DNA from: Nitrospira sp.
GTDB lineage: Bacteria; Nitrospirota; Nitrospiria; Nitrospirales; Nitrospiraceae
Assembly: GCA_029194535.1 (NCBI GenBank)
Contig: JARFXR010000002.1
Coordinates: forward strand, 806,001 to 870,000
Reading direction: 5' to 3'
Length of the DNA stretch: 64,000 nucleotides
In this document: positions 32,022 through 36,063 of the stretch, one piece after another
How positions within the stretch are numbered: position 1 is the first letter of the stretch
How the letters are laid out: each line of letters opens with the position of its first letter
Program-made: the position numbers and the translations under genes
Notes under the pieces: model-generated
Told to the model about the DNA's origin: nothing
The model's database searches: none
Seen by the model: only the letters and a program-made list of their open reading frames with translations

Positions 32022-34742
<2,721 letters not shown>

Positions 34743-34745
34743 GAA

Positions 34746-34954
34746 ACCAGGCTCGTTAGTCCTCTCCTGCTCAGACGCTCCGGCTCGACCGTACTAAGTC
34801 TCTTCCGGCTCAGCGGCGGAAACTTGTTTCGTTCCTCGCGTGGCGGAACGAAACGTCGAACATCCGCCGCTGTCGACCTTCGGCGACCGCCGGAATTCGA
34901 CAAGTACGGTGCCCTCGCCTCCGCGATCCGCGAAACCGGACTCACGAGGCCGGT
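34746..34954. repeat. Structured three-helix repeat, copy 1 (after secA)
   Basis: Nested helices: outer ACCGTACT (34788-34795) with AGTACGGT (34903-34910); middle GCGGCGGA (34813-34820) with TCCGCCGC (34863-34870); inner GTTTCGTTCC (34826-34835) with GGAACGAAAC (34845-34854). The flanks ACCAGGCTCG and AACCGGACTCACG are shared with copy 2, while helix bases differ in compensatory fashion. It starts three bases after the secA stop. Confidence 0.85.
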
Positions 34955-35012
34955 CAAGCAAGAGACGAAGAACCGCTCGAGTTGCTACGAGGAGCTGGCA
35001 GGGCCTAGACGG

Positions 35013-35054
35013 TTGACAGGGAAATCACACGGTGTATATCATCGTGTATATACA
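35013..35054 (+). promoter_or_regulatory. vapBC promoter with overlapping operator
   Basis: TTGACA (35013-35018), 16-bp spacer, TATATC (35035-35040). Overlapping the -10 is an inverted repeat TGTATAT (35033-35039) and ATATACA (35048-35054), also readable as GTGTATAT twice at a 12-bp period. This is the expected layout for autorepression by a VapBC complex. Confidence 0.65.
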
Positions 35055-35074
35055 TTCCGCTTGATGACATTGCT

Positions 35075-35320
35075 ATGACCTCTCGAAAAAAGACCAAACT
35101 CTTCATGAGCGGCAACAGCCAGGCGGTGAGAATTCCTCGCGAGTTCCAGTTAGAGGGTGACGAAGTCGAAATTCAACGAAGGGGCAATACGCTCGTCATC
35201 CGGCCGAAGAAGCAGACTTGGCAGCGCTTCGCGGAGTGTCTCGCCAGGTTTACCCCCGATTTCATGGAGGAAGGCAGAGTCCAGCCTCCCTTGCAGAAAC
35301 GCAAGCGGACCCTCGCATGA
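35075..35320 (+). CDS. vapB: VapB-type antitoxin (AbrB/SpoVT fold)
   Basis: 81 aa. N-terminal swapped-hairpin AbrB domain: KLFMSGNSQAVRIPREFQL with the signature GNSQAVRIP, then VEIQRRGNTLVIRPK, and a short C-terminal segment that would wrap the toxin. Neutralises the VapC toxin and represses the operon. Overlaps vapC by 4 bp (ATGA). Preceded by an operator-like dyad. Confidence 0.88.
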   Translation: MTSRKKTKLFMSGNSQAVRIPREFQLEGDEVEIQRRGNTLVIRPKKQTWQRFAECLARFTPDFMEEGRVQPPLQKRKRTLA

Positions 35321-35715
35321 AGGTGATGCTGGACACCAACATCTGCATCTATCTCATCAAGCAACAACCTCCTGCGGTCATTGAGCGATTCTTTTCCTAT
35401 CCAGTCGGCGACATCGGGATTTCCAGTATCAGTGTCTCAGAGCTGGCTTATGGAGTGAGTAAGAGTCGCCACTCCACCAAGAATCGGCTCGCGCTGGAGC
35501 AGTTTCTCGCCTCGCTGGAGGTGACCTCTTTCGACCGAGAGGCGGCCTTTTCATACGGTCGATTGCGATCCCAACTGGAACTGAAGGGGAGCCTTATCGG
35601 TTCGATGGATATGCTCATCGCCGCCCATGCGCTGAGTCTGGGAGTCCGGCTCGTCACCAACAACCTCAGGGAGTTCCGGCGCGTCCCAGGATTACGGGTC
35701 GAAAACTGGGTATAG
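35317..35715 (+). CDS. vapC: VapC-type PIN-domain ribonuclease toxin
   Basis: 132 aa PIN domain. Acidic residues expected for Mg2+ binding are visible: D6 in MLDTNICIYLI, E in SISVSELAYG, and D in GSMDMLIAAHA; the fourth position is in TNNLREF near the conserved RRVPGLRVENW end. The start codon at 35317 overlaps the vapB stop. VapC toxins cleave tRNA or rRNA. The stop codon is followed after one base by copy 2 of the structured repeat. Confidence 0.9.
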   Translation: MKVMLDTNICIYLIKQQPPAVIERFFSYPVGDIGISSISVSELAYGVSKSRHSTKNRLALEQFLASLEVTSFDREAAFSYGRLRSQLELKGSLIGSMDMLIAAHALSLGVRLVTNNLREFRRVPGLRVENWV

Positions 35716-35716
35716 A

Positions 35717-36063
35717 ACCAGGCTCGCTGCGCCCGCCTCTCTCCCGCGCGTCAATTCGACCGTTCTAGTCTCACACCTGCTTGGCATCGAAACTCGTTCC
35801 GTTCCATGCTTGCATGAACGGAACGTCGAACATCGATGCCACTCGCAAAAGGCGAGACGCAGTCGCTCGACAGAACGGTGCCCGAATTGCCGCAACGGTC
35901 GAGAGCCAGGCGCAGCGGGCGCGCAAGAGTAATGAAGATGGACGCCCATGTCGTCCGTCTCAGTCCGCATCCCTTCCAGGCGAGCCAAGATGGGTGGATA
36001 ACAAGAAGAGTGATTGTCCGAGCAGCCGCGATTCGCTGAACCGGACTCACGTGGCGGGCTTAG
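35717..36063. repeat. Structured three-helix repeat, copy 2 (after vapC)
   Basis: Same order of helices as copy 1: outer ACCGTTCT (35759-35766) with AGAACGGT (35872-35879); middle GGCATCGA (35783-35790) with TCGATGCC (35833-35840); inner GTTCCGTTC (35796-35804) with GAACGGAAC (35816-35824), with an extra ATGC/GCAT tip. The right flank AACCGGACTCACG is displaced by about 130 bp of extra sequence relative to copy 1. Confidence 0.8.

Follow-up and report, generated by a model that had tools for sequence, protein, structure and literature searches.

The present study describes a family of long imperfect palindromes, here called R1, starting from two copies that enclose a vapBC toxin-antitoxin pair in a 64,000-nt window of a Nitrospira genome (G000), the window being the whole stretch of DNA that was analyzed. 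The patterns detected are explained best, and in our view with moderate confidence, by a Nitrospiraceae-specific interspersed palindromic repeat that probably serves as a hairpin at the 3′ ends of genes and, in a secondary role, provides homology through which toxin-antitoxin genes are gained and lost.

All features of the locus are on the + strand. The stop codon of the host gene secA (32022–34742, an open reading frame of 906 aa) abuts the first copy, c1, a full palindromic element at 34743–34957 that scored 132.4 bits with the covariance model described below. Its outer arms (34746–34762 and 34938–34954) pair from the fourth nucleotide past the stop and surround the model core (34782–34919), in which inverted repeats delimit an inner part at 34811–34872 with a middle helix (34811–34820/34863–34872), an inner helix (34826–34835/34845–34854), and an asymmetric internal loop, AAACTTG../..GTCGAACA, whose columns are conserved in alignments A2 and A3. 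The gap between c1 and vapB contains a predicted sigma-70-like promoter of vapBC (TTGACA-18-TATCAT, 35013–35042), in a stretch that is also conserved in genome G004. The vapB-type antitoxin gene (35075–35320, MazE/AbrB fold, PF04014) and the vapC toxin gene (35317–35715, PIN domain, PF01850) are followed by the second copy, c2, a full closed palindrome at 35716–35920 (115 bits) with 25-nt outer arms (35722–35746 and 35896–35920) and a model core at 35753–35888. The sequence-only reading of this region had started the two repeats 3 nt past the secA stop and 1 nt past the vapC stop, and both positions were confirmed: the secA TAG (34740–34742) is followed by GAA and then by ACCAGGCTCG from 34746, and after the vapC TAG (35713–35715) ACCAGGCTCG begins at 35717. 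The shared blocks it named were all found on direct reading, as were the seven paired changes it counted between c1 and c2, that is, one in the outer helix (ACCGTACT/AGTACGGT in c1 versus ACCGTTCT/AGAACGGT in c2), five in the middle helix (GCGGCGGA/TCCGCCGC versus GGCATCGA/TCGATGCC), and one in the inner helix (GTTTCGTTC/GAACGAAAC versus GTTCCGTTC/GAACGGAAC). Its two copies are real, but c2 ends near 35920, and the region up to 36063 also takes in a separate relic, to which the block AACCGGACTCACG near 36038–36051, previously taken as the c2 end, belongs. This relic (36015–36058) is identical at 34 of 44 positions to the 3′ end of c1 (34910–34953), compared with a maximum of 27 in 5000 shuffles, and is most readily understood as what is left of another c1-type copy. 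The cores of c1 and c2 are only 57% alike and represent different subtypes.

The R1 covariance model was built from ten copies, with both c1 and c2 in the seed alongside homologues from other genomes, and describes an element of approximately 190–215 bp with a 137-nt core inside the outer arms. Each of the seven genomes from the genus contained BLASTN relatives of the repeats which, with the model scores of 132 and 115 bits, indicates that the repeat is not due to chance. The model matched 46 of 60 Nitrospiraceae genomes at 1–18 copies per genome, including 15 in the genome of the window and 18 in G007, although these counts rest on a search with stricter filters that may miss weak copies, and several of the sampled assemblies are incomplete. 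Copies inside one genome were mostly ≤80% alike. The covariance-model search that had been proposed from the sequence did return further copies in the genome and family with helices kept. In a phylum-wide sample strong scores were confined to Nitrospiraceae, and weak matches in five genomes outside that family (E 1e-5 to 1e-6, 37–44 bits) are probably chance. The exact inner-hairpin core pattern, searched in approximately 85,000 species genomes, was present on 18 contigs, all from Nitrospira/Nitrospiraceae; a 13-mer core motif, allowing a single mismatch, gave only chance-looking matches beyond c1 and c2, and a plasmid collection contained no R1 and a single match, to the vapC gene. There was no Rfam match at gathering score, which agrees with the earlier statement that no named family was known for the repeat, and the best match at a relaxed threshold was a chance microRNA (22.6 bits versus 79). 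A description of these repeats was not found in the open-licence literature, where absence is no proof of novelty, and R1 is apparently an undescribed family of Nitrospira-type bacteria. Some copies are clustered. Three same-orientation copies at L057:3022-5357 (G000:C1, approximately 1795.0–1797.4 kb) have small gene pairs between them, one of which is a Gp49/HI1420-type addiction module and the other unnamed, and two of the three copies are followed by an extra repeated stretch of approximately 150 nt; L054:1174-1967 has three tandem copies approximately 330 nt apart with gene-free spacing, L080:3077-3345 has two adjoining gene-free copies, and L022 (G003:C1:1509896) has near-identical palindromic units in tandem with R1-like 3′ ends.

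Gene neighbors were taken from a simple gene finder of our own and Pfam, with key host genes confirmed by Pfam. For 43 copies a stop codon lies no more than 80 nt upstream, and 40 of these are oriented like the gene that it ends; the excess at stop codons for which the sequence-only reading had proposed to look is therefore a strong concentration. The model core begins 26–55 nt past the stop in 37 of the 43, and the stretch from stop to core is taken up by the outer arm, whose complement lies beyond the core (median arm score 28 versus 14 for shuffled partners, null maximum 22), with the first arm pair ≤4 nt from the stop in 19/43. The nearest called gene start was 71 nt or more from the core. 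Most copies were placed behind housekeeping genes, and gene ends that recurred as hosts across genera were those of purC, tenA, sahH, sucC, purQ, methylmalonyl-CoA mutase, glnE, and crtC, while the 3′ end of secA carries R1 in ten genomes from six genera. Since a near-symmetric hairpin should act in both orientations, a simple 3′-end stabilizer does not account for the sense bias, which points to directional insertion or to a signal that depends on orientation. Two other palindrome families were observed at the same gene ends. Family B (GGCRTCGCCATGATGCGACG...CCACGCACTCCTATAA...CGTCGCAATGCCGTCGYGCGTGG) lies directly behind the secA stop in G001, G004, G021, G010, and G040 (L098, L099, L103, L106, L107) with locus-specific complementary outer arms, and family C (core GTGCTCGCAGAACGCGCACGATCAGAATGTGCTCGTTCGATGCGCGCAGT) lies directly behind the purC stop in many genera without R1 there (L188, L189, L195, L198, L202, and L205–L209; alignment A4), with arms that differ yet pair. 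At secA and purC, different hairpin families thus replace each other at one gene end; the core patterns of B and C were absent from the window.

Seven intervals of approximately 0.7–1.5 kb bounded by R1 copies were found regardless of content, and five of these contained VapBC, RelE/HTH, Gp49/HI1420-type, BrnT/CopG (below the Pfam cut-off), or Fic genes, with the other two containing genes without a Pfam match. Within the genus, 5 of 50 PIN-domain matches were ≤2 kb from R1 compared with approximately 0.6 expected from copy number and genome size, an expectation that ignores that both favor intergenic ground. At msrB, the RelE/HTH genes of G044 stand between two elements that are 95% alike including the arms. 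In G014 the first element is present and, after approximately 110 nt of different sequence, the second is reduced to its 3′ arm, a relic comparable to that at 36015–36058. As a general description, the earlier proposal of a cassette with a toxin-antitoxin pair fails, given that most copies are behind housekeeping genes and that in a search of the 60 genomes vapC homologues in G002, G044, G045, G022, and G059 had no R1 nearby; for the latter reason, travel of vapBC with the element was rejected. What survives of it is that copy pairs tend to enclose such genes. On the sequences, the association of R1 with toxin-antitoxin genes is real at some loci, and R1 is no dedicated carrier.

The secA 3′ region was also read in relatives, among Nitrospiraceae genomes with SecA identity of 78–97%. 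The nearest relative of c1 was the inverted secA element of G006, and those of c2 were secA-adjacent elements of G044 and G056, from another genus (84% and 82%), which the c2 outer arm also resembles. Because all of these c2 relatives are secA-adjacent, c2 has the appearance of an old secA element, although its present place is behind vapC. Both element types at the query locus are types found at secA in relatives, and vapBC probably ended up between secA and the older c2, with a c1-type relic left on the right. In G004, an 85%-identical vapBC occupies the same place at secA; a different palindrome family precedes it, 45 bp left over from a c2-type 3′ end lie on its left, and R1 is missing on its right, as opposed to G000 where c2 is on the right. 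Toxin-antitoxin-like genes were also found directly behind secA without R1, namely MazE-like antitoxins in G029 and G035 and a HicB-like protein in G024, the assignments in G024 and G029 being weak or by sequence look. Across genera this region hosts varied toxin-antitoxin-like genes (VapBC, HicB-like, MazE-like) with or without R1 (L102, L117, L118, L099), and it appears as a dynamic insertion hot spot. Occupied/empty comparisons at secA and purC yielded no clean empty site.

An alternative explanation could be that R1 acts as a site of recombination on folded DNA, similar in principle to attC but not of an integron, where a recombinase acting on the hairpin inserts gene-plus-element units, especially toxin-antitoxin pairs. 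This would be consistent with fixed orientation behind stop codons, with the toxin-antitoxin or Fic content of most R1-bounded intervals, with the near-identity of the G044 copies flanking RelE/HTH, with the c2 sequences lying on opposite sides of vapBC in G004 and G000, and with pairing at the DNA level, discussed below. We nevertheless consider it unlikely, as most copies stand behind single-copy housekeeping genes rather than cassettes, vapC homologues of other genomes have no R1 beside them, R1 ends have no conserved core box, and homologous recombination or deletion between repeats gives the same patterns. Resemblance to integron attC sites is clear in the hairpin right behind the cassette-gene stop, the constant orientation, the DNA-level fold, and the toxin-antitoxin pairs between copies. 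R1 differs, however, in its housekeeping neighbors, in lacking the RYYYAAC and GTTRRRY boxes (each in 1/43 copies and both together in 0/43, compared with 0.5 and 1.6 in shuffled sequence), and in lacking a co-occurring IntI. The integron integrase TIGR02249 was over cut-off in only 5 of 41 genomes (G004, G017, G029, G031, G036), did not track R1 copies, and had no match over cut-off in G007 with its 18 elements. An attC identity was therefore rejected for want of both boxes and integrase, as the sequence-only reading had maintained. In the genome of the window, an integron-integrase-like gene is interrupted by a stop codon and scores below the TIGR02249 cut-off (G000:C1:1021699-1022229, L217).

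Like ERIC, NEMIS, and REP, R1 is a single imperfect palindrome that occurs in multiple copies, which are dispersed and mostly intergenic. The ERIC/IRU and NEMIS/Correia elements are likewise small (approximately 100–155 bp), interspersed, and mostly intergenic, and ERIC is co-transcribed and acts on the upstream mRNA in an orientation-dependent way (PMC2229807). R1 is longer than these and restricted to Nitrospiraceae, with its start at the stop codon and a core loop that stays unpaired between variable arms; the arms at its ends are complementary without conservation of sequence. REP/BIME elements are also extragenic palindromes, many near 3′ ends, and REPs ≤15 nt from a stop codon have been reported to affect translation (PMC12306157), but they are short and high-copy whereas R1 is approximately 200 bp with 1–18 copies. 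No R1 was found within 1.5 kb of eight Y1 transposase loci, and G005 and G006, both incomplete assemblies, had 7 and 9 copies with no Y1 match; a REP/RAYT system was rejected because R1 is not linked to Y1 transposase genes. Rho-independent terminators share a hairpin behind the stop codon, but R1 is approximately 200 bp and without a T-tract, four T occurring in the 3′ flank of only 3/43 copies and at neither c1 nor c2 on the + strand, so that an intrinsic terminator was rejected as well. Overall, R1 is set apart from ERIC, NEMIS, and REP by stop-codon anchoring, sense bias, and arms that are free in sequence but paired.

R1 could instead be a decayed non-autonomous transposon (MITE/REPIN) without current function, its positions reflecting insertion preference and purifying selection. 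Dispersal with restriction to one family, subfamilies at different genes, and the presence at one gene end of different subfamilies or other palindrome families across genomes are compatible with this. It is improbable to about the same degree as a recombination site, given that core loop and helices have persisted through divergence between genera, that the same gene ends (secA, purC, tenA) are occupied in many genera, and that neither a terminal-repeat/target-site-duplication signature nor linked Y1 transposases were seen. Mobility of R1 is suggested by dispersal only, because comparisons gave no clean pair of empty and filled sites with a target-site duplication, R1 has no linked transposase, and copies inside one genome have mostly diverged to 80% identity or less.

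Pairing was assessed across 80 distinct copies, where standard pairs filled 86% of pair cells compared with 66% after shuffling and 31–41% after sliding, and 29 of 31 pairs change on both sides; these statistics lean upward since the alignment was fitted to the model. Independent mafft/RNAalifold runs recovered the same main outer and inner helices. In the outer arms the sequence varies from copy to copy and complementarity stays, while the loop AACTYGTT.. / ..TTCGAACA is conserved, unpaired, and mismatched across the family. Strong covariation, sense orientation behind stop codons, and a conserved unpaired loop might indicate a structured non-coding RNA or a cis-regulatory 3′-UTR RNA selected for its fold. 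In a selected RNA, G-U is expected to far outnumber A-C among non-Watson-Crick pairs on the transcribed strand. In R1, the two best helices (P2 and P5) had 26 G-T versus 16 A-C and the outer arms leaned to A-C (17 versus 37), and three random samples run through a single pipeline gave GT:AC counts of 19:17, 19:9, and 22:13, compared with 177:13 for RNase P of 29 Nitrospiraceae genomes in the same pipeline, i.e. a ratio of approximately 1–2 versus 14. Such near-symmetric counts, unlike those of RNase P, argue against selection on R1 as RNA and for pairing kept at the DNA level; with several copies inverted and no Rfam match, we regard an RNA as quite unlikely. Identity with an Rfam structured RNA was rejected, there being no curated model match and no preference for G-U wobble. 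The compensatory pairs had been taken as strong evidence for a selected RNA or single-stranded DNA fold, and of this the RNA part falls while helices kept family-wide, with pairing at the DNA level, remain.

Compensatory changes in R1 are no evidence for RNA, since in addition to the wobble symmetry they may arise as single template-switch mutations. Compensatory multi-base changes are possible in one template-switching event (PMC8794818), and template switching is able to invert a spacer between inverted repeats (PMC8604942), which fits the inverted R1 copies behind secA in G002, G006, G007, and G010. At L020 the 3′ half is nearly the reverse complement of the 5′ half. Template switching would account for the covariation, the inverted secA copies, and L020, but not for the family-wide persistence of the mismatched loop. 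The unpaired loop is thus the best candidate for something selected, and pairing is perhaps kept at the DNA level partly by template switching.

A more far-reaching version of the recombination-site explanation is a non-integron cassette system of Nitrospiraceae, in which R1, B, and C would share sites and an enzyme recognizing the unpaired loop would use stop-anchored hairpins to add, flip, and remove units of gene plus hairpin, chiefly toxin-antitoxin pairs, by recombination; we think this very unlikely. Chance similarity of c1 and c2, or simple local duplication of one hairpin, has only their proximity in its favor and is refuted by the 15 copies in this genome, the homologues in 46 of 60 genomes, and the difference in subtype.

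Returning to the interspersed 3′-end repeat that we favor, each copy would form one long DNA hairpin or cruciform, with a core with unpaired loop and variable complementary arms. Read through into mRNA, it could give a 3′-end hairpin beside the stop that, by analogy with ERIC and REP, may affect decay or translation of the upstream gene. Template switching during replication would homogenize the arms, keep the palindrome, and at times flip the core, selection or a binding protein may keep the loop unpaired, and duplicated copies would provide homology for insertion and loss of segments such as toxin-antitoxin pairs.

We know of no other bacterial palindromic repeats that form long sense hairpins starting at the stop codon with arms free in sequence but paired, nor of any in which unrelated hairpin families exchange at the same gene ends. 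R1 is also a warning case, in that strong covariation, usually taken as proof of an RNA fold, is here wobble-symmetric and points to DNA. For the family itself, R1 adds a repeat family to environmentally important nitrifiers, and the excess of toxin-antitoxin genes between its copies makes gain and loss of such genes through the repeats a testable proposition.
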